From positions 1 to 20,559 of IMG/VR virus record IMGVR_UViG_3300017771_003698: DNA of 20,559 bases, one strand, 5' to 3'. Every line of letters begins with the position of its first letter. Positions within the stretch are counted from its first letter, which is position 1. Source of the stretch: a virus. A model generated the notes under the pieces. That model was not told where the DNA came from. It searched no databases and saw nothing but the letters and a program-made list of their open reading frames with translations. Both the position numbers and the translations under genes were made by a program. Of this stretch, positions 2,999 through 14,781 are shown piece by piece.

Positions 2999-3388
2999 TT
3001 ACCTTCCTATATCTTTTATTTCTGTTTTAGGAATAACTTGATATGCACCTTTATTGTATGCAGGTGCAACTGTGAAATTCCTGCTTTCTTCTAATCGCCA
3101 GTTATGATGTGGTTTAGTGCCACCTATCTTCTGGCGAGGACGATGGGATTCGAACCCACGGCCTCCTGCGTGACAGGCAGGCGTTCTAACCGGCTGAACT
3201 ACGCCCTCATTTCTTTGGTCATACCAATTAGGAATAACCTTGAAATTTTTTCTATCAATCTTTCTATCAGGATCAATACCTAATGATTTAAGATATTGCC
3301 TGTGTTCTTTTCTTGCTTTAATCAAACTATCTGTAAGAGGTAGTTTTTTTCTCTTTGACTTCTTAAATGATGTGTAAAATATTGCCAT
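2999..3388 (-). CDS. Small phage protein of unknown function, interrupted by an in-frame tRNA gene (129-codon ORF)
   Basis: The ORF is open for 129 codons, but codons 61-86 coincide with a tRNA-Asp gene. Their translation (VVQPVRTPACHAGGRGFE...) is the familiar artefact peptide of a tRNA read as protein. The flanks look like real coding sequence: a basic N-terminus MAIFYTSFKKSKRKKLPL (1-18) and a C-terminus with APAYNKGAYQVIPKTEIKDIGR. I recall these as the two ends of a small phage protein family of unknown function, about 100 aa without any tRNA segment. So either the tRNA landed in the gene and left the frame open, or the two halves are relics. The ATG is only 8 nt from the promoter -10, giving an almost leaderless message. 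Whether a full 129-aa protein is made is uncertain. Confidence 0.6.
   Translation of the reverse strand: MAIFYTSFKKSKRKKLPLTDSLIKARKEHRQYLKSLGIDPDRKIDRKNFKVIPNWYDQRNEGVVQPVRTPACHAGGRGFESHRPRQKIGGTKPHHNWRLEESRNFTVAPAYNKGAYQVIPKTEIKDIGR
3132..3208 (-). tRNA. trnD: tRNA-Asp (anticodon GUC), CCA encoded
   Basis: Complete 77-nt cloverleaf on the minus strand. The 7-bp acceptor stem GAGGGCG/CGTCCTC has one G-U pair. The D arm is GTTC/GAAC, the anticodon stem CCTGC/GCAGG with loop CTGTCAC (anticodon GTC), and the T arm GTGGG/CCCAT with loop TTCGAAT. Discriminator G is followed by genomically encoded CCA. It is far more GC-rich than its surroundings. It lies inside an ORF on the same strand and would share that ORF's promoter (3397-3425). 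Asp identity elements (GUC, G73) are intact, so it is predicted functional. Confidence 0.96.
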
Positions 3389-4652: not shown

Positions 4653-5807
4653 TTATCTAGTATTACCGTAATATTTTATTACACAATGTTTGGTTGCGTC
4701 TGAATGTTTAAGACTTCTATATGGATCAATAATACAACTACCAGGATTAAATTGTTTGGGGATTAAACCTTTATCATGTATTAGATAAGTATATGCACCC
4801 TCGTCTGGTGCCTTATCATAATATACTTTCATACTACTATCAAGATTTTCAATATACCAACCAACTAACATAGACGGACTTCCTGCCGTCTGGTCAATAC
4901 CAGGTTTAAATGCTTTGCCTAAAATGACTACTGGCATTTGATACTTTAAACAATATCTTGCCATATTCTCTGCTTGTGATTCTCGTACTTTCATAATACT
5001 ATCAAACAAATCATAACCAAGATTTAATTGTTTTGCCATATGTCTTAAAGCAATATTATCTCTAGGGTGACAAGCACCACCATCACCAAAACCTGCCATC
5101 ATGTAACTAGGTCCCATAATTCTTTGTGTGGAGTGTTTCAATGCGTCTGTGACTACATCAACATTTATATTACCAACTTTCATTGCCACATCTTGTATCA
5201 TATTTACTAAACACAACTTGGTTGTAATAAAGGTATTATAAAAAACTTTTAGTGCCTCTATTTCTTCCCAAGTACCTATTTCATATCTTGTATCTTTTTG
5301 TAGTATAGGGTCATAAACTTTTCTTAATGTTTGTGATTGCTCATCATCTTTACCAGATGAAGTTCCTATCATAATCATTTCAGGATTTCTCATATCCCAT
5401 TTTACTGTGCCTTGTGCAATTAAATATGGATTGTAAATAAACTTACCATTTTTAATTAGAGGTAAAACTTCTCGTCTTACCGTGCCAGGCAATACTGTTG
5501 AAATAACAGATATCAATGTATCTTTGTCAACCAAAGCATCTACATCTTTTACTGCTTGTATTAAGTATGAATAATCAAAATCTTTAGGTTCTAAATGTGA
5601 AGTAGGTGTCTCACCACCATACTTTGAATCGTGTGGTGTTTGTACTGCAACTAAAACTACATCTTTATCTTTACATGTTTCCTCAAGTGTTCCAGATAAA
5701 CCATCAACAACTACATTTGGATCGTAACCAACCACATCATGTTTCTCTGCTAAAACTTCAGCAGCGTCTCTACCTAATTTACCTAATCCTATAAATCCTA
5801 TTTTCAT
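4653..5807 (-). CDS. UDP-glucose/GDP-mannose dehydrogenase family protein
   Basis: NAD-dependent four-electron oxidation of a nucleotide sugar to its uronic acid is the family reaction. The N-terminal Rossmann motif is GFIGLGKLG (4-12). The central dimer domain has E184, K187 and N191 in EALKVFYNTF, and the catalytic cysteine C246 is in GGACHPRD. The C-terminal UDP-binding domain starts at VILGKAFKPGIDQTAGSPS (294-312). Two consensus elements differ from what I recall: the usual C-F-P-K-D is C-H-P-R-D, and the usual DDxRESP is IDQTAGSP, losing the Arg. At 384 aa it is slightly short for the family (about 390-440). The substrate may therefore not be UDP-glucose. It is the last gene of the accessory block and overlaps the NadE-type gene by 4 nt. 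Confidence 0.88.
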   Translation of the reverse strand: MKIGFIGLGKLGRDAAEVLAEKHDVVGYDPNVVVDGLSGTLEETCKDKDVVLVAVQTPHDSKYGGETPTSHLEPKDFDYSYLIQAVKDVDALVDKDTLISVISTVLPGTVRREVLPLIKNGKFIYNPYLIAQGTVKWDMRNPEMIMIGTSSGKDDEQSQTLRKVYDPILQKDTRYEIGTWEEIEALKVFYNTFITTKLCLVNMIQDVAMKVGNINVDVVTDALKHSTQRIMGPSYMMAGFGDGGACHPRDNIALRHMAKQLNLGYDLFDSIMKVRESQAENMARYCLKYQMPVVILGKAFKPGIDQTAGSPSMLVGWYIENLDSSMKVYYDKAPDEGAYTYLIHDKGLIPKQFNPGSCIIDPYRSLKHSDATKHCVIKYYGNTR

Positions 5808-6562
5808 CTAAACTTCTCCATATCGCATACTGGTATTGGAACCATCTTATGTTTGTTTTGTTCTTTTATCTTTCTATATATCTCTAATTTTCTTGCCTCT
5901 TCTGGAATTGTGACAATGGCACCCATATCATCTTGTATCATCGCCTTTTCTAAATCATCATAAGACATACCTATTTGATCTTCGTCTGTTCTACCATCAT
6001 CCCATAAACCATCAGTAGGTGGAGCGTCTTGTATGTCTTGTAAAATATTTAAATAGTTTGCCATTTTAAATACATCGCTTTTCATACAATCTGCAATAGG
6101 GGAAATATCTACACCACCATCACCATACTTAGTATAAAATCCTACACCAAAGTCTTCTACTTTATTACCTGTACCTATAACTAAACCATTATTAGATGTT
6201 GCCACTTGATATAACATCATCATTCTCAATCTACTTCTACTGTTAGCAAAAGCATGTTCACTATCTGCACCAAGATATTTTGATGCATTTTCAAACTCAT
6301 GAAATATTTTTTCTAAATTAATAATTCTTTTACTTACGTTAGAAAAGTTTTCTTCTAACCACCATGCATGTTCTAAAGCAAGCATGTCTTTATTCTTAAT
6401 TGTCATTACTATTGGTATTGTTCTTAAACCAGTTTTTGCTGATAACGTAGAAACCACGCTACTATCAATACCACCAGATACACCTACAACTAAACTTGTT
6501 TTATTATTTTGTTCAGCATAGTCTGTTATCCAATCAATAATATGTTCAATCTTCTCTTTCAT
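5804..6562 (-). CDS. nadE: NH3-dependent NAD+ synthetase (NadE-type)
   Basis: N-type ATP pyrophosphatase that adenylates deamido-NAD and amidates it with ammonia. The PP-loop SGGIDSS (29-35 from this start) and the family stretches GTGNKVEDFGVGFYTKYGDGG, DISPIAD.MKSDVF and APPTDGLWDDGRTDEDQIG are all present, so the enzyme looks intact. It has no glutaminase domain. Two ATGs compete: the one at 6571 directly abuts the AGGAG, while the one at 6562 has 9-nt spacing, so 6562 is chosen (252 aa, against 255). It overlaps the carbamoyltransferase by 17 nt and the dehydrogenase by 4 nt. It could simply restore NAD+ during infection, or amidate a carboxylated sugar made by its neighbour; the strong NadE motifs favour the former. 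Confidence 0.9.
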   Translation of the reverse strand: MKEKIEHIIDWITDYAEQNNKTSLVVGVSGGIDSSVVSTLSAKTGLRTIPIVMTIKNKDMLALEHAWWLEENFSNVSKRIINLEKIFHEFENASKYLGADSEHAFANSRSRLRMMMLYQVATSNNGLVIGTGNKVEDFGVGFYTKYGDGGVDISPIADCMKSDVFKMANYLNILQDIQDAPPTDGLWDDGRTDEDQIGMSYDDLEKAMIQDDMGAIVTIPEEARKLEIYRKIKEQNKHKMVPIPVCDMEKFR

Positions 6563-8099
6563 AAATTTCATCTCCTAAAAATAATTTATCTATTGGCATT
6601 TTTCTGAATGTTGCTAATGCTTGTTCAGGTGTTTCTACAATAGGTTCTTGGTAATTAAAACTTGTATTTAATACAGCAGGTAAACCACTTTGTTCTATGA
6701 TGTTATATAGTATTTCATTATGTTCTCGTTTTAAAATTTGTGGTCTTGTTGAATTATCAACATGATTAACACCTGTTAATTGATGTCTATATTTCTCTTT
6801 AATTACGGCGCTAGTCTGCATATATGGAGACCACTCGTTATAATCACTTAAATATTCATCTGCATACTTATCCAATATAATAGGTGCATATGGTCTATAC
6901 CATTCTCTTTGTTTAACTTGTTCGTTTAATATTTTTCTTATGTGTGGTATACTAGGATCACATAATATACTTCTATGTCCTAATGCTCTAGGTCCACTTT
7001 CACTACCACCTTCATAGTATGCAATAACATCACCTGATGATAAACTCTCTGCAACTTTATTAACATCTGGTGTACCAACTTTATAATCTGGTCCTGTATA
7101 TGGACTAAAGTAATCATTTGTTTTAGGATTGTTTAGAACATGATGCCAAACATACAAAGCTGCACCTATTGCCAAACCTGTGTCATTTGGAAATGGTGGT
7201 ACATGTAGATTTTCAAAATGTGTTTCTTTTATTATATCTCTATTAGCAATACAGTTTAAAGCCAAACCACCAGAGTAGCAAAGATTTGTTTCGCCTTGAT
7301 ATATATTTTTTATTTCACTTACTAATCTTTTTACAGTATATCTTTGTAATGTCGCTGCCACATTTTGTGACCTAAATCTTTTTGTATCTGATAAATCTTC
7401 ACACTCATTAAATGCTCTTGCTCTTGGATCAAAATTTTTAGGGCTTGGTGCCAATGCTAAATCTTGTCTTATTCTTGTTTCTAGTTCTTCATCACCAAAT
7501 GTACCATAACTAGATAAACCCATAATCTTACCTGCACCTGAACCTGGATCCCAATCATGTATTCTTTTCATTCTGTAATTATTAAAACATATTGATGACC
7601 AATAACTAGCAACATTTTCTTTTACTAGACCTTCGTATTGTTCTATCTTATTACCACGACCAAATGATGTACTTGCGTTCTCACTATCACCTCCACCATC
7701 CCATGTAAATATTCTCGCTGATGAATATGGACTTGTGTAGTATGCACTTGCGGCATGACATAAATGATGATTTACTGCAATACCTCTAGTACCATCGCCT
7801 ACATTAAATTCTATTGATTCTGATTGTGCTGTGTCAACTATTCTAAATGGTGGTAATTTATCTGGTTCTTTTCTACCAATCCAGTTTATAATGGACTTTG
7901 GAAAATTACATGCTAGTATGTTAATGTCGGTCCATTGTAAATTACAATGCTCTAGTGTTTTATTAACAAACTCTTGACTATAACCATAATCATGTTTAAT
8001 TCTAGAATGACGTTCCAGTTCCCAATTAATAAGAACTTTACCATCTTTAATTACACATGCTGAGGCGTTATGTCCATAATATAATCCTAGTATTATCAT
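6546..8099 (-). CDS. Carbamoyltransferase, NodU/CmcH/TobZ family
   Basis: Family enzymes make carbamoyl-adenylate from carbamoyl phosphate and ATP in an N-terminal Kae1-like domain and pass the carbamoyl group to a hydroxyl. Seen here: GLYYGHNASA (5-14) opening the ASKHA fold, the metal-binding histidine motif HHLCHAASAYYTSP (111-124), TWDGGGD (132-138), SGGLALNC (276-283), PFPNDTGLAIGAAL (302-315), GSESGPRALGHRSI (365-378) and REWYRPYAP (398-406), with the Carbam_trans_C domain to the end. At 517 aa it is near the usual length (about 550-600). It overlaps the methyltransferase by 4 nt and nadE by 17 nt. Bacterial members act on antibiotics and Nod factors, and phage members on 5-hydroxymethylcytosine are reported. 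The acceptor here is unknown; the context of glycosyltransferases and a sugar dehydrogenase suggests a sugar. Confidence 0.93.
   Translation of the reverse strand: MIILGLYYGHNASACVIKDGKVLINWELERHSRIKHDYGYSQEFVNKTLEHCNLQWTDINILACNFPKSIINWIGRKEPDKLPPFRIVDTAQSESIEFNVGDGTRGIAVNHHLCHAASAYYTSPYSSARIFTWDGGGDSENASTSFGRGNKIEQYEGLVKENVASYWSSICFNNYRMKRIHDWDPGSGAGKIMGLSSYGTFGDEELETRIRQDLALAPSPKNFDPRARAFNECEDLSDTKRFRSQNVAATLQRYTVKRLVSEIKNIYQGETNLCYSGGLALNCIANRDIIKETHFENLHVPPFPNDTGLAIGAALYVWHHVLNNPKTNDYFSPYTGPDYKVGTPDVNKVAESLSSGDVIAYYEGGSESGPRALGHRSILCDPSIPHIRKILNEQVKQREWYRPYAPIILDKYADEYLSDYNEWSPYMQTSAVIKEKYRHQLTGVNHVDNSTRPQILKREHNEILYNIIEQSGLPAVLNTSFNYQEPIVETPEQALATFRKMPIDKLFLGDEIYERED
6572..6576 (-). promoter_or_regulatory. 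Shine-Dalgarno deciding the nadE start
   Basis: AGGAG lies immediately before the ATG at 6571 (zero spacing) and 9 nt before the ATG at 6562. The spacing supports the downstream start. The site lies within the 3' end of the carbamoyltransferase gene. Confidence 0.65.
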
Positions 8100-8752
8100 C
8101 TATGTGCAATTATTAAACCATTACCTTTATCGTCAACCTTTTGCCAATTCTTTTTAAAGGGTCCTAGATCATGTGTGGCCTTATCAATAGTCCAACCAGC
8201 ACTTTCAAATTTGTTCACCCACCAGTCTAACGTTTCTCGTATAAAGTGTGATTTATCATGTTCATAACTTTCAATAATATATTTCTCACCATCACCAAGT
8301 GGTATCATTGCTAATATTTTTTGACCACCTTTGTTTAATACTTTTAACTGTTCGTCTATATCTTCATAAGGTATGTGTTCTAATATATCTTTACACAGCA
8401 CCCAAGTATAAGAATCAGGACCAGCACAAACTAGAGCATCTTTTGGTTGTATAACACCTAACCATCGTCTTATATCTTCATCTGCTTTACTTACAGCATA
8501 TTCAGATACATCTACACCATATGCTTTATGACCTAGTAATCGTAAACCTTTTACTGTAAATCCTTTGGCACAACCAAAGTCTAATAATTTTTCTTCTGGT
8601 TTAAGGTTAGTATATTGTACAATGTGATGACACATTGGTATAGTAAGTTCTGGCATCCAACGATAGTGTGAGTATAAAGACTTTCCAGTCTCCGCACCTC
8701 TTTCGTAATAATTTTCATCAAAATAATCTGTTGCCTTAAATGAAGTTTTCAT
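8096..8752 (-). CDS. Class I SAM-dependent methyltransferase
   Basis: Rossmann methyltransferase of 218 aa. Motif I LLDFGCAKGF (56-65) binds SAM, followed by YGVDVSEYAV for the acidic ribose ligand and CKDILEHIPYEDI for the post-IV region, as in the Methyltransf_11/23 type. An N-terminal segment, TDYFDENYYERGAETG, and a WMPELT motif resemble the small-molecule or sugar methyltransferases found in surface-polysaccharide clusters. No zinc-binding or target-recognition domain is present, so DNA is an unlikely substrate. It overlaps the radical SAM gene by 17 nt and the carbamoyltransferase by 4 nt. Confidence 0.88.
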   Translation of the reverse strand: MKTSFKATDYFDENYYERGAETGKSLYSHYRWMPELTIPMCHHIVQYTNLKPEEKLLDFGCAKGFTVKGLRLLGHKAYGVDVSEYAVSKADEDIRRWLGVIQPKDALVCAGPDSYTWVLCKDILEHIPYEDIDEQLKVLNKGGQKILAMIPLGDGEKYIIESYEHDKSHFIRETLDWWVNKFESAGWTIDKATHDLGPFKKNWQKVDDKGNGLIIAHR

Positions 8753-10097
8753 GTTCTAATGGTTCCTTAAATTCATCAAATCTGTTTACTTTATCATTTA
8801 TAAAATCGTCTAACATATTGACATTGTTTGTAAAGACACAACCTGTACATCTTTTTGTTGCGTCAAATCTTTGTTTTATTTTTTTATCCATATAGTCTAA
8901 AACATCACTCGCATGGCATAATTGGTATTCCTCTGCAAAGTGTTCAAAGTTATCATTTAAAACTACACTATCACAAGGATAAACTGTACCAGGTTTACCT
9001 GTACCTGTATGTATCTCCTCTGATAGATATGGTCTGAAATAACTTTGATGGCACGTAGGTGTTTTAGGTCCCCCATGTACTTTGTATTGGTGAAAGAATC
9101 TTTTATCTTTAACTTCTTTTAATACATTATCTAAACTTCTATGTTGTCGTATTAAATTTTTTTGTTCTAATAAACAGTTAGGTAATAATCTTATATATTT
9201 ACTACCACATGCATTAGCAACTTTTGAAACTTTATCTAATAAACCAACTCTGTCTGCCATTACTTCATCTGATGCTTCATGTTCAACTGTGTACACCATA
9301 GAATTACCAATTGTTGTTTTATTCAGATCAAATTTTTCTAATGGTAAACCTATTCTGTTTTCCCAATCAAAGAATACATTAATAGATATTCTAACCCATG
9401 TAAACATCTTACATACATCTTCATCAACTCTTTTCCAATATTGTTTACTACCATTACTAATTAAAGCAACTTGTAGTCCTTCTCCATATAACCATCTAAC
9501 TAATTCATTAAAATGCTTGTAGGCAGTAGGTTCACCGCCGCCGGTTAATATTACTGCCTTCAATCCTCTCGTTTTCAATTTTGTTACATAGTCTTTAATT
9601 GTATCCATGTCAATACGACTATGTGTATCTCTATATGTTACACTACAATAAGGGCATTTTAAATTACAAGCACCCTCTGGACTAATGTGTGTACTAATAA
9701 CTGTATTGGGATTATTATTCTTATAGTTCATCATCGCTTCTTGATGACGCCACCATTTAATACCTGTTGATGTAAACTTATGTTCTTCTTCACTAGGGTC
9801 ATGTTCTAATTCTGTTTCAGTAGGTGTTTCATCATAAAAGATATAGATATTACTATACTTCATACCATTCTCAACTCTATCTAATATTTCATGACCTTTC
9901 TCTAATGTAATTGGTTTTAAATGTGAAACATCATTATTGTCAATATACTCATAATTCTTAACAAAGTTTTTTACTTTACCTCTAGCCGCATGTCTGTATA
10001 TAATATACTCATCTTCTTTTTTATAGAGACCTATTTCGAAACCTGTTCCTTGATGAACTTTGACTGGTTCGTAATCTTTTATTTTTGGGAGGGCCAT
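8736..10097 (-). CDS. Radical SAM enzyme with C-terminal auxiliary cysteines
   Basis: The [4Fe-4S] motif CNLKCPYC (C144, C148, C151) is followed by ILTGGGEPT (183-191), the SAM-amine binding region, and VALISNGS. An unusual N-terminal extension of about 130 residues precedes the core. The C-terminal part has C349, C375, C394, C417 and C420 (YPCDSVV, CTGCVF), which resembles a SPASM or twitch domain binding one or more extra Fe-S clusters. Such proteins modify peptides, sugars or nucleotides by radical chemistry; the substrate here is not readable. It overlaps the upstream glycosyltransferase-like gene by 19 nt and the methyltransferase by 17 nt. Confidence 0.9.
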   Translation of the reverse strand: MALPKIKDYEPVKVHQGTGFEIGLYKKEDEYIIYRHAARGKVKNFVKNYEYIDNNDVSHLKPITLEKGHEILDRVENGMKYSNIYIFYDETPTETELEHDPSEEEHKFTSTGIKWWRHQEAMMNYKNNNPNTVISTHISPEGACNLKCPYCSVTYRDTHSRIDMDTIKDYVTKLKTRGLKAVILTGGGEPTAYKHFNELVRWLYGEGLQVALISNGSKQYWKRVDEDVCKMFTWVRISINVFFDWENRIGLPLEKFDLNKTTIGNSMVYTVEHEASDEVMADRVGLLDKVSKVANACGSKYIRLLPNCLLEQKNLIRQHRSLDNVLKEVKDKRFFHQYKVHGGPKTPTCHQSYFRPYLSEEIHTGTGKPGTVYPCDSVVLNDNFEHFAEEYQLCHASDVLDYMDKKIKQRFDATKRCTGCVFTNNVNMLDDFINDKVNRFDEFKEPLEHENFI

Positions 10098-10795
10098 GGT
10101 AATGCTTTCTTTATATAGTGTTTATGTTTTTCAGATATTTCTAAGTCCTCTGTCTCTGGTGTCCAGTTTAACCACTTTTCTTCGTACCAAGTTTCAGACG
10201 GTGGACTATCTTTGTAATATTTAGATGATTGTAATGCCACCTCATGTTTGTATTTCATCACATCTGGTGATAAACAAAACCCATAATTATAACACTTTAT
10301 TGATGAATGTACTGTTTCTGCATTTTGCCAACAACCTTTTTGTGTTTCTGTTGGTACTGTATTCCATAATGAAGGACCCGGTCTATCTTTATCTCTTTTG
10401 ACATACCATTGTTTATTTTTCCAAAACTCTATTTGATTAAAACAAACTTCTAAATCTTTTATATCCCATATGTCTTTTATCTCATTACCCCAAACCATAT
10501 CTGGTTCCATCATCAATGTTTGTTTAGGTTGAGGATAATATTGCATAACTTCGTCATACATTAATTTATATTGATTTAGAGGAAGATCATATTCTTTTTC
10601 AAATACTGTGACCTTACTATACTTTTCACAAAACTCTTTTACATTTTCATCTAAAGGAGGTAAGTTCATAGCACCTTTGTACCATGGTTTTTTAGACCAA
10701 AATACAAATATTTTATCTACATGATTTTCAATACTTTCAATAGATTGACCTAGAAAATCTAGACCATAGTGTATTCTATATAAGGCATATTTCAT
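10079..10795 (-). CDS. Glycosyltransferase-like protein (GT-A fold)
   Basis: Starts MKYALYRIHYGLDFLGQSIES, followed by HVDKIFVFWSKKPW. This resembles GT-A enzymes that open with a strand and a helix naming the position of the nucleotide sugar. An acidic element, MEPDMVW (96-102), sits where the DxD metal site is expected. The second half is Trp/Tyr-rich with KCYNYGFCLSPDVM. The match is by fold pattern only and weaker than for the two neighbours. It overlaps them by 4 nt upstream and 19 nt downstream, tying it to the same block. It may act on the same acceptor or be an accessory, non-catalytic member. Confidence 0.65.
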   Translation of the reverse strand: MKYALYRIHYGLDFLGQSIESIENHVDKIFVFWSKKPWYKGAMNLPPLDENVKEFCEKYSKVTVFEKEYDLPLNQYKLMYDEVMQYYPQPKQTLMMEPDMVWGNEIKDIWDIKDLEVCFNQIEFWKNKQWYVKRDKDRPGPSLWNTVPTETQKGCWQNAETVHSSIKCYNYGFCLSPDVMKYKHEVALQSSKYYKDSPPSETWYEEKWLNWTPETEDLEISEKHKHYIKKALPWPSQK

Positions 10796-11868
10796 ATAGG
10801 GTATTTTGATTTATGTATATAAGTTTCTTGTATGTATCTATCCATTTCACCTTCTTTTATTGCATAGGCACCTATCATATCAATATTATTATCTATACAA
10901 TACCAAACTCTCTGATTACCTCTTAATACTCTATAATCTGAAGCACAAACAATAATAGGATATGTCATACCATTTTTATCTATGGATTCACAAAGTTTTT
11001 TATATTGTATTACCTGTTCAGGTAAAGGATCTTCTTTTAGTTTATGTGCAGCTGGCGCCCACTCTTTTTCTAATATCTTCACATCATAATAAGTAAAATT
11101 TTCTTTCAATTCTTCATTTATGATTTGAGGTTTTAATTTTGTTGCCTTACCTATATTAATTAATTCTTGTAATTTATTTCTATCATCAAGTCTTACATTT
11201 CTAGTTTTATCAAATAAGATTTTATCTTTTGCATATAGATTACCTTTTTCTTGTGTTCTATTTCTAGCATAAGTATCGTCCATTGGTGCCCCTTTACTAA
11301 AATGTAAATGCTCTGCTTTAATATGTGGTATAAAATGTGTTCTATCTAACATCTTACCAACTTCAAAAATAAAAGTATCATTATAACCAAAGTGAAAACA
11401 CCCCGGTGTAAATCTACCTAGACACTCATACCATTCTCTACTAACAATAGGAAAAGCACAATGTGCCTCACCGTTGATACCATCTTCCATATATGCAACA
11501 TAAACTTTATCTTTATCAAACTGTTGTAATTCTTTTTCAAGTATATCTTCCCAACCAGGTGTACTGTAAACTAAATCATCATTACCCATAATCAATACAT
11601 CACCAGAACACTCTGCAGCTAAATCATTCCATGATATAGAAACACTTTTAGGTTCTCCTATTATGAAACGAACATCATAAAATCCTATGTATTCTGTTTT
11701 ACAATGTTTTTCTAGTGACTTATATGCTTCTATTGCAGGATCGTCATTATCAACGTAAAATAATAATTCTACACTACCTCTTGCCCAAGCTGTGTTATAA
11801 ATTGATTTGATAAACCTCTCACAATTATTAGGTCTATTTCTTGTTGGTGTTAGTATTGATATTCTCAT
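10792..11868 (-). CDS. GT2 glycosyltransferase fused to a ParB-like domain
   Basis: Residues 1 to about 225 read as family-2 glycosyltransferase: RISILTPTRNRP (2-13), LFYVDNDDP (36-44) and GDVLIMGNDDL (89-99), where NDD replaces the usual DxD. Residues about 283-340 resemble the ParB/sulfiredoxin N-terminal fold: PLPEQVIQYKKLCESIDKNG, then YPIIV and YRVLRGNQRVWYCIDNN, with GNQR (317-320) in place of the ParB GxxR box, and IGAYAI as the last strand. ParB folds bind or hydrolyse CTP/ATP, so the domain could bind a nucleotide or DNA. This fusion is unusual to me. It overlaps both neighbours by 4 nt. Confidence 0.8.
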   Translation of the reverse strand: MRISILTPTRNRPNNCERFIKSIYNTAWARGSVELLFYVDNDDPAIEAYKSLEKHCKTEYIGFYDVRFIIGEPKSVSISWNDLAAECSGDVLIMGNDDLVYSTPGWEDILEKELQQFDKDKVYVAYMEDGINGEAHCAFPIVSREWYECLGRFTPGCFHFGYNDTFIFEVGKMLDRTHFIPHIKAEHLHFSKGAPMDDTYARNRTQEKGNLYAKDKILFDKTRNVRLDDRNKLQELINIGKATKLKPQIINEELKENFTYYDVKILEKEWAPAAHKLKEDPLPEQVIQYKKLCESIDKNGMTYPIIVCASDYRVLRGNQRVWYCIDNNIDMIGAYAIKEGEMDRYIQETYIHKSKYPI

Positions 11869-12488
11869 TTCATTAAAGTCTTTCTTATATGTTCTCTACC
11901 CACAGGTCCTGTCCAATGTATAACTTTTTTTGTAGGACTGTCTTGACCTTTGTTTAAAGATATTCTTAACCATTGATAGTCTTGTGGCAATTCTTGTATC
12001 TGTTCATTTTCATTACTTTCAATTAAATCATATAATGCTTCTTGATCACCCCTAATACCATCATTCTGGTTTAATCTTACATTCCAATCGTATAATAATT
12101 TAGGTCTATCATTTACTACAATGACACCTGTTGCCCACCAATTAGCTCTAACCCAATCTCTAGTTAACCCTATCATACCAGGTGGCACTAAATTAAACAT
12201 GTCAGATATATCTGTTAATATTTCACAATCTACATCTAACCATGCAACTCTTTTTTCAGGTGCTTCTATAACTGCATGTAATTTGTAAAACCACCCGGAA
12301 TCTGTTCTCTTTTGTAAAGGTATAGATAACCAAACATTAGGATAATGTGTTTTAATCATTTCCCTTTTTGATTGTGACATACCAAAATCCCAAACACCTA
12401 TTGTTTCATCTTTAATATGTGTTGTGGCATTTCTTAACCACCACTCAATTAAATCTTCATGATTTGAATCAACTCCTGTTAGTATCAT
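11865..12488 (-). CDS. GT8-like glycosyltransferase
   Basis: Residues 82-90 read AWLDVDCEI, with the DxD metal motif DVD (85-87). GVIVVNDRP and IRGDQEALYDLI form the acceptor-side region, and VIHWTGP near residue 190 is the usual closing H-W motif of GT8-type enzymes. At 207 aa it is short but holds the complete GT-A core. It starts the accessory block: its 5' end overlaps the PD-(D/E)XK nuclease gene by 20 nt and its 3' end overlaps the GT2-ParB gene by 4 nt. Donor and acceptor sugars are unknown. Confidence 0.8.
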   Translation of the reverse strand: MILTGVDSNHEDLIEWWLRNATTHIKDETIGVWDFGMSQSKREMIKTHYPNVWLSIPLQKRTDSGWFYKLHAVIEAPEKRVAWLDVDCEILTDISDMFNLVPPGMIGLTRDWVRANWWATGVIVVNDRPKLLYDWNVRLNQNDGIRGDQEALYDLIESNENEQIQELPQDYQWLRISLNKGQDSPTKKVIHWTGPVGREHIRKTLMK

Positions 12489-12822
12489 CTTCTTTTCTGT
12501 TTAGTAAAATAAATGTCTCTAAGTCTAGAACAGCTAGAGGTTTATGGTGATTTCTTTTAATAACTGCAAGTGGCTCATAACCTTTACAGTTTTCTTCGGC
12601 TTGTTTATATGCAGCCCAAATGTTTAATGCTTCTTGATTTTTACATTCAATGCTATATGGAAACAAATTTCGTGCAGCCTTTGCCATGATTAAATCTTCA
12701 CCGCCTGCACCCATTGATCTACTTTCTATATCTTCTGGATCAACGCCTAAATGTTCAATTAATAATTCTCTTACTTTTTTTTGTAGGTTTCTACCCTTCG
12801 CTTTCGCTGAACTCGTCTTCAT
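12469..12822 (-). CDS. PD-(D/E)XK nuclease (VRR-NUC/Holliday-resolvase-like)
   Basis: Small nuclease of about 117 aa. From the preferred ATG it reads MKTSSAKAKGRNLQKKVRELL. GAGGEDLIMA supplies E-D and SIECKN supplies E-x-K, the catalytic core of PD-(D/E)XK enzymes, followed by the helix ALNIWAAYKQAEEN and AVIKRNHHKPLAVL. T4-like marine phages often carry such a gene near nrd; its exact role (branched DNA processing or host DNA breakdown) is not known to me. Earlier in-frame ATGs at 12837 and 12834 exist; 12822 has a GGAG 6 nt upstream and gives the typical MKTSS start. The beginning overlaps the zinc-ribbon gene out of frame by 32 nt. Confidence 0.75.
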   Translation of the reverse strand: MKTSSAKAKGRNLQKKVRELLIEHLGVDPEDIESRSMGAGGEDLIMAKAARNLFPYSIECKNQEALNIWAAYKQAEENCKGYEPLAVIKRNHHKPLAVLDLETFILLNRKEDDTNRS

Positions 12823-12934
12823 CCCATTCTCCATCATTGTGTAATGCCTCTCCGCAACACGGACAGAACTTCACCGGTAGATCATTCTCTACCTTTATTC
12901 TAACTTCAGCTTCACAATTTTCGCATATTATCAT
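12791..12934 (-). CDS. Small zinc-ribbon protein (47 aa)
   Basis: MIICENCEAEVRIKVENDLP followed by VKFCPCCGEAL gives two Cys pairs, C4-x2-C7 and C24/C26/C27, a rubredoxin-like zinc knuckle. An acidic tail (DGEWDEDEFSESEG) follows. The ATG overlaps the nrdB stop by 4 nt (ATGA). The 3' end overlaps the nuclease gene in a different frame. Acidic zinc-ribbon proteins of this size recur next to the reductase genes of T4-like marine phages in my recollection; the function is unknown. Confidence 0.8.
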   Translation of the reverse strand: MIICENCEAEVRIKVENDLPVKFCPCCGEALHNDGEWDEDEFSESEG

Positions 12935-14043: not shown

Positions 14044-14781
14044 TTATATCTCCTTGTAATAATCCTTGTGCCTGTAGTATAAATCTTTTAGATTTTCTAC
14101 CTTGCTGTCTTTGTCTAGTAAATTTCTAAACAACTCTTTATCTTCGCTCCATTTTCTACCAGTCCACCATTCAAATCCATTGTAGTGAGACTTATATTCA
14201 CATACATTTTCATAAGCATATGATGAATAATAGTATTCATAACCCATATCTTTGTATAAGGCACACTCGTAATTTTGTGCAACTGTGCCTAAACTTAGTT
14301 CAGGATTTTCATAGTTCCAAGCAAATTCACCTGCAACTATTGATTTCTTAAATCTAGTTAATTGAGTATAACCTATAATTTTACTATCGTGCCAGTAAAT
14401 AAAATAGTCTTTATTACCATACTCTTTATCAACTAATTCACTTCCATGATCATCATATCCTTTATAATCACAATACTGTTTAAATATAATGTCACACTCT
14501 TTCTGCCAAGGATTATCATCAGGATAATACTTACCAGTAATTTCTTTCTTTAAGTATTGTCTATGTTTCTTTTTAAGAGAAAATTTACTTAAATCAATTC
14601 TTGTTGTTCTCGCTTGTACCCACAACTGTTTATCTGTCTGATAGAAGAAAGCATCCATAGGTGTCCAACCTAATTTTAATGCTTGATCTTCTTCTTCTTT
14701 TTCAACCTCTGCTAATGCAAGTCCGTAGATTAAATCATACTTCGTTGTATTACCATAGATGTGGTCATAAAATACTTTCAC
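14044..14781 (-). CDS. ATE/Bpt-like aminoacyl-tRNA-protein transferase homologue
   Basis: The C-terminal region LSLGTVAQNYECALYKDMGYEYYYSSYAYENVCEYK (split at about residues 162-197), followed by FEWWTGRKW, resembles the GNAT-like core of arginyl- and leucyl-tRNA-protein transferases (S-L-G, then Y-Y-x-x-Y, then Y-K, then W). The N-terminal part has GWTPMD and a segment RIDLSKFSLKKKHRQYLKK, which recalls the RVxVxxFxxSRSxRR region of ATE. The usual N-terminal cysteines are missing. True members add Arg or Leu to protein N-termini from charged tRNA. The start is GTG, with GAGGA a few bases upstream, and overlaps the preceding stop by 1 nt. It lies between nrdA and nrdB. Confidence 0.65.
   Translation of the reverse strand: MKVFYDHIYGNTTKYDLIYGLALAEVEKEEEDQALKLGWTPMDAFFYQTDKQLWVQARTTRIDLSKFSLKKKHRQYLKKEITGKYYPDDNPWQKECDIIFKQYCDYKGYDDHGSELVDKEYGNKDYFIYWHDSKIIGYTQLTRFKKSIVAGEFAWNYENPELSLGTVAQNYECALYKDMGYEYYYSSYAYENVCEYKSHYNGFEWWTGRKWSEDKELFRNLLDKDSKVENLKDLYYRHKDYYKEI

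Follow-up and report, generated by a model that had tools for sequence, protein, structure and literature searches.

The 20,559-nucleotide (nt) viral record IMGVR_UViG_3300017771_003698 (positions 1-20,559, analyzed whole, referred to here as the window, and apparently a genome fragment) contains a block of eight open reading frames (ORFs), all on the minus strand and spanning 4653-12488, that probably constitutes a modular phage cassette for making a decorated acidic sugar and attaching it to a glycan (Table 1). The window has a T4-like gene set (a primase-like gene, nrdA, nrdB, and others) with close relatives in the SAR11 phage HTVC008M. A first-pass annotation had listed these eight genes in this order, downstream of nucleotide-reduction genes, and the ORFs are confirmed as listed, with nrdB and nrdA just upstream of the block. 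It had also put the overlaps between neighbors at 4-20 nt: in transcription order they are 4, 4, 19, 17, 4, 26, and 4 nt, so that six (4-19 nt) fall within this range and one, the 26-nt overlap of the carbamoyltransferase gene with nadE, falls outside it, shortening to 17 nt if an internal ATG of nadE is used. Taken alone, these overlaps would suggest translational coupling of the block. Overlap by itself is modest evidence of a unit, however, because about half of the neighboring gene pairs in HTVC008M overlap (31 of 63 adjacent pairs in the equivalent region, where the block is the longest overlapping run); conserved gene order is the stronger evidence. Promoter-like sites in the window are no more frequent than in shuffled sequence, terminator-like sites are few and uninformative, and a search for RNA elements found a tRNA alone.

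Table 1. Genes of the block and the flanking RusA-like gene, in transcription order (window coordinates).
Gene product	Length (aa)	Coordinates	Strand	Basis of assignment
RusA-like Holliday junction resolvase / PDDEXK		12469..12837	-	PHROG 244, E 1.5e-21
GT8-like glycosyltransferase	207	11865..12488	-	motifs only
GT2 glycosyltransferase with C-terminal ParB-like domain	358	10792..11868	-	PF00535 above cut-off
GT-A fold glycosyltransferase-like protein	238	10079..10795	-	AlphaFold2 model
Radical SAM protein with SPASM-like C-terminal cysteines	453	8736..10097	-	PF04055
SAM-dependent methyltransferase	218	8096..8752	-	PF13489, PF08241, PHROG 27380
NodU/TobZ-type O-carbamoyltransferase	517	6546..8099	-	PF02543 and PF16861 above cut-off
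NadE-family amide ligase / NAD+ synthetase	255	5804..6571	-	TIGR00552
UDP-glucose dehydrogenase-type nucleotide-sugar dehydrogenase (UGDH)	384	4653..5807	-	PF03721 and PF00984 above cut-off

Six of the family assignments made at first pass (UGDH, NadE, carbamoyltransferase, methyltransferase, radical SAM, and GT2) are borne out by profiles, with support from solved relatives for most of the proteins so assigned; the remaining two glycosyltransferases are placed by a structure model (238 amino acids, aa) and by motifs (207 aa). In UGDH, which has both the NAD-binding and the central domain, the catalytic cysteine motif GGACHPRD aligns with GGSCFPKD of a solved UGDH, and NadE scores 173 bits against TIGR00552 (cut-off 63.65). 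The carbamoyltransferase aligns best, among solved proteins, with TobZ, and does not qualify as NodU proper (129 bits for the NCBIfam equivalog NF041651, cut-off 1000). In the radical SAM protein, the CX3CX2C core cysteines C144, C148, and C151 and the C-terminal cysteines C349, C375, C394, C417, and C420 are invariant in seven diverse relatives, and all eight are kept even in a 23%-identical cyanophage protein; no formal SPASM profile match was obtained. The GT2 protein has a GT-A fold, and its ParB-like domain is recognized by PHROG 620 and a PDB profile match. The 238-aa protein has no family match and models as a GT-A glycosyltransferase (AlphaFold2, pLDDT 79), its top Foldseek matches being the SunS/ThuS glycosyltransferases. 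The 207-aa protein has neither a family match nor a PDB sequence match, but its DVD and HWTG motifs are invariant across eight relatives. A reading of the block as a defense system was rejected: the viperin matches of the radical SAM protein are at superfamily level only, and the mad2 match of the methyltransferase is weak.

The evidence that the block is a unit comes from its conservation among phages. All eight genes occur in the same order in five environmental contigs and in cultured HTVC008M, where they are gp155-gp162 (NC_020484) and likewise lie downstream of nrdAB; further contigs interrupted by their own ends are consistent with this order, and five more carry seven of the genes in order, without the carbamoyltransferase. 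The HTVC008M block differs from that of the window in its sequence (55-86% protein identity) and in a trailing 2-oxoglutarate (2OG)-Fe(II) oxygenase gene; such an oxygenase-like gene follows UGDH in most relatives but is missing from the window. Identity to HTVC008M is highest for the radical SAM protein (86%; compare 85% for NrdB) and lower for the glycosyltransferases (55-61%). Searches starting from the radical SAM and glycosyltransferase genes uncovered a divergent estuarine lineage with the order GT2, GT-A, sometimes carbamoyltransferase, radical SAM, methyltransferase, and UGDH; it has no NadE, its GT2 protein lacks the ParB-like part, and the nrdAB genes that precede the block in some contigs are different ones. 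The tightest unit of the block is the pair of radical SAM and methyltransferase genes: they are side by side in cyanophage SynMITS9220M01 and are paired without other block genes on one examined stretch (L323). The carbamoyltransferase and NadE are optional modules. From the conserved order and this modular pattern we conclude that the block functions as a single unit assembled from modules, which upholds the earlier view of one pathway for a decorated sugar; homologues do not occur singly and scattered, as had been anticipated for a chance collection, and gene order is kept across contigs even as the carbamoyltransferase and NadE come and go. Two relatives have additional sequence between NadE and UGDH: in L012 a 146-aa ORF with no family match is inserted at 9303-9743, and L013 has a gap of similar size. 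HTVC008M also carries a second carbamoyltransferase (gp003, L195) adjoining 2OG oxygenase genes.

More distant phage homologues are found in glycan contexts. In cyanophages (Bellamy, S-SSM7, P-TIM68, S-SCSM2R, and Sf-FS3), a NadE-UGDH pair is accompanied, as in the window, by a methyltransferase and glycosyltransferases, and in Bellamy also by a carbamoyltransferase; the proteins are 46-50% (NadE) and 30-52% (UGDH) identical to those of the window. Unlike the window, these clusters include heptose genes, NDP-sugar epimerases, and more glycosyltransferases, and have no close radical SAM homologue. Being equally large or larger, they do not support the earlier statement that the block exceeds the usual phage auxiliary set. 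Homologues in single-cell marine viruses and in one jumbo phage likewise lie in glycan clusters, as read from sequence. A suggested kinship with SAR11 surface islands found no support. In 117 SAR11-family genomes the homologues are distant (about 21-31% for UGDH and mostly under 40% for the carbamoyltransferase; for radical SAM the similarity is mainly in the core domain), which rules out capture of a host surface island, at least as a recent copy from the hosts sampled.

We propose the following scheme, in which the order of reactions, the substrates, the exact sugar, the uronamide product, and the acceptor are those that we infer. UGDH would oxidize a nucleoside diphosphate (NDP)-hexose of the UDP-glucose type to a uronate; the NadE-family enzyme would work with UGDH, most likely using ATP to amidate the uronate and give a uronamide; the radical SAM and methyltransferase pair would alter and methylate the sugar or glycan; the carbamoyltransferase, where present, would add an O-carbamoyl group; and the three GT-A-type transferases would join the sugar to an acceptor. 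The most likely acceptor is the lipopolysaccharide or O-chain of the host, whose decoration would change a receptor or exclude competing phages; a virion glycan is the other candidate, and DNA is not considered one. An earlier survey of pelagimyophages had recorded both glycosyltransferases and UDP-glucose 6-dehydrogenase in them, with alteration of the host O-chain as their proposed role (PMC7029224). In the literature searched, we found no description of the eight-gene block, its modularity, or the NadE-UGDH pairing.

The pairing of NadE with UGDH recurs well beyond this block. In annotated or sequenced phage records with NadE at least 45% identical (n=9), a UGDH-type gene adjoins NadE in nine of nine, with one methyltransferase gene between the two in Bellamy. 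In IMG/VR, UGDH is directly downstream on the same strand in 45 of the 80 closest NadE loci; some of the 35 loci without it are contig ends, and many resemble stand-alone phage genes. On the NadE tree the UGDH-linked label requires at least five changes, and therefore the pairing has been gained or lost several times. In addition, the UGDH partners of a single cyanophage NadE clade belong to two types that a deep split separates on the UGDH tree. Because the pairing recurs across distinct NadE lineages and involves both UGDH types, these comparisons suggest that the NadE-family enzyme and UGDH work together. Amidation of a uronate would be the simplest chemistry for such a partnership, since NadE-type enzymes amidate another carboxylate, and this step is a reasonable possibility, short of being probable. 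We offer with similar caution the idea that separate lineages of phages have repeatedly recruited a NadE-family enzyme to partner UGDH as a UDP-uronic-acid amide synthetase. Bacterial O-antigen uronamide sugars are made with AsnB-like WbpS, and the analogous step proposed for WbpS/WbqG is the amidation of a nucleotide- or lipid-linked uronic acid (PMC7468200). The candidate amidating enzyme of the window is NadE-like whereas WbpS is AsnB-like, so uronamide sugars made by NadE and UGDH (here also methylated and carbamoylated) might, if they exist, represent a different route.

Several observations weigh against parts of this scheme. The UDP-binding C-terminal domain of UGDH (PF03720, 20.4 against 30 bits) and TIGR03026 (143.5 against 189.8 bits) score below their curated cut-offs, which makes the UGDH substrate uncertain, and the GT8-like assignment depends on motifs only. 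NadE keeps 37 of 38 NadE-invariant positions and stands alone in many phages, including same-clade genes and one within the pelagiphage clade; the cellular NadE most closely related to it is the only one found in the examined SAR11 genomes, where it has housekeeping genes as neighbors; and the UGDH-linked NadE clades share no convergent substrate-switch residue. The pelagiphage-clade NadE is changed at the otherwise conserved positions 57, 60, 65, 168, and 171, which may or may not matter for function. The conserved positions, the stand-alone genes, and the SAR11 relative, together with the absence of NadE from the estuarine lineage of the block, would suit an enzyme that is a true NAD+ synthetase within the same glycan cassette, supplying cofactor to UGDH and phage metabolism, with no uronamide formed. 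This alternative is a serious one, to which we likewise assign something under an even chance. It does not readily explain why distinct NadE lineages are repeatedly found beside UGDH, and beside both of its types, and, NAD+ being recycled, there is little reason for a synthetase to track one dehydrogenase inside glycan clusters. The first-pass annotation had left the choice at 'amidation or NAD supply'; the link of NadE to UGDH now has good support, and both the uronamide step and NAD+ synthesis remain tentative. For marine-phage genes annotated merely as 'NAD synthetase' and read as NAD metabolism, the pairing makes a clear biochemical prediction. On two short contigs (L244 and L245), a pelagiphage-clade NadE is found alone near phoH, with no UGDH nearby. 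In Synechococcus phage Sf-FS3 (L191), the NadE-UGDH pair is followed, two genes on, by a CN-hydrolase (nitrilase/amidase) gene at 11734-12594. Glutamine-dependent NAD synthetases obtain their ammonia from nitrilase-type domains, and this CN-hydrolase may therefore act in the NadE step.

Few bacterial groups are as abundant as SAR11, and the effects of its phages on cell or particle surfaces are hardly known; conservation of the cassette in cultured HTVC008M makes the proposal of a surface glycan testable. A further point against modification of the host surface is that family and profile searches of the eight block proteins identified neither a flippase nor a membrane protein, and hence no counterpart of the GtrA flippase that, with GtrB, characterizes gtrABC-type serotype conversion. 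Export of a new chain would require a flippase or polymerase, and the lack of such genes in the block, its occurrence in lytic T4-like phages, and the resemblance (at fold level only) of the 238-aa model to SunS-type peptide glycosyltransferases would all fit a glycan placed on a tail fiber or capsid protein of the virion rather than on the host. We consider this destination unlikely, if worth keeping in view: neither HTVC008M nor the relatives examined have a gene for a virion protein linked to the block.

Phage DNA, which the first-pass annotation had also named as a possible acceptor, is a very improbable target. Related carbamoyltransferases act on 5-hydroxymethylcytosine (5hmC), sharing the domains PF02543 and PF16861 with that of the window, and the ParB-like domain of the GT2 protein might suggest DNA carrying carbamoylated or glycosylated 5hmC, but this domain is missing in the estuarine lineage, and UGDH and NadE are unnecessary for 5hmC chemistry. 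The 5hmC-modifying systems identified by MetaGPA co-occur with thymidylate-synthase-like dCMP hydroxymethylases, and in the same study the contigs on which glycosyltransferases flank a carbamoyltransferase were unmodified (PMC8670742). A gene of this family (PF00303) is present in none of ten records of the cassette or its relatives, six of them complete phage genomes (the window being a fragment), and this absence of the usual partner, with the glycan context of the relatives, led us to reject DNA hypermodification. The TobZ residues W408, G421, and R423 have been linked to cytosine activity, but the source text assigns no residue to a class, which made them unusable here. Least probable of all is that unrelated auxiliary genes came together by chance in a densely packed phage genome. 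The coming and going of the carbamoyltransferase and NadE and the commonness of overlaps might be cited for this reading, but synteny over many contigs and two deeply diverged lineages already contradicts it.

Several other features of the window and its relatives are of note. The RusA/PDDEXK-like gene overlaps the first block gene by 20 nt on its upstream side and keeps the same location in relatives; it is probably a housekeeping phage gene outside the pathway. Between nrdA and nrdB, a gene at 14044-14781 (minus strand) is similar to the C-terminal portion of arginyl-tRNA-protein transferase (PF04377, E 5e-5; NCBIfam arginyltransferase, E 3e-7), an odd companion for ribonucleotide reductase. 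HTVC008M gp079 (L196) is a tryptophan-halogenase-like gene beside the terminase genes. Finally, a conserved small phage ORF at 2999-3388 (minus strand) remains open through a same-strand tRNA-Asp (3132-3208). At the same site in relatives the tRNA is Asp (L012 and L015), Thr (L022, L024, and L026), Ala (L290), or Arg and Pro (L341), whereas in L031 and HTVC008M the ORF contains no tRNA; the parts of the ORF on either side of the tRNA, at its N- and C-terminal ends, are conserved.

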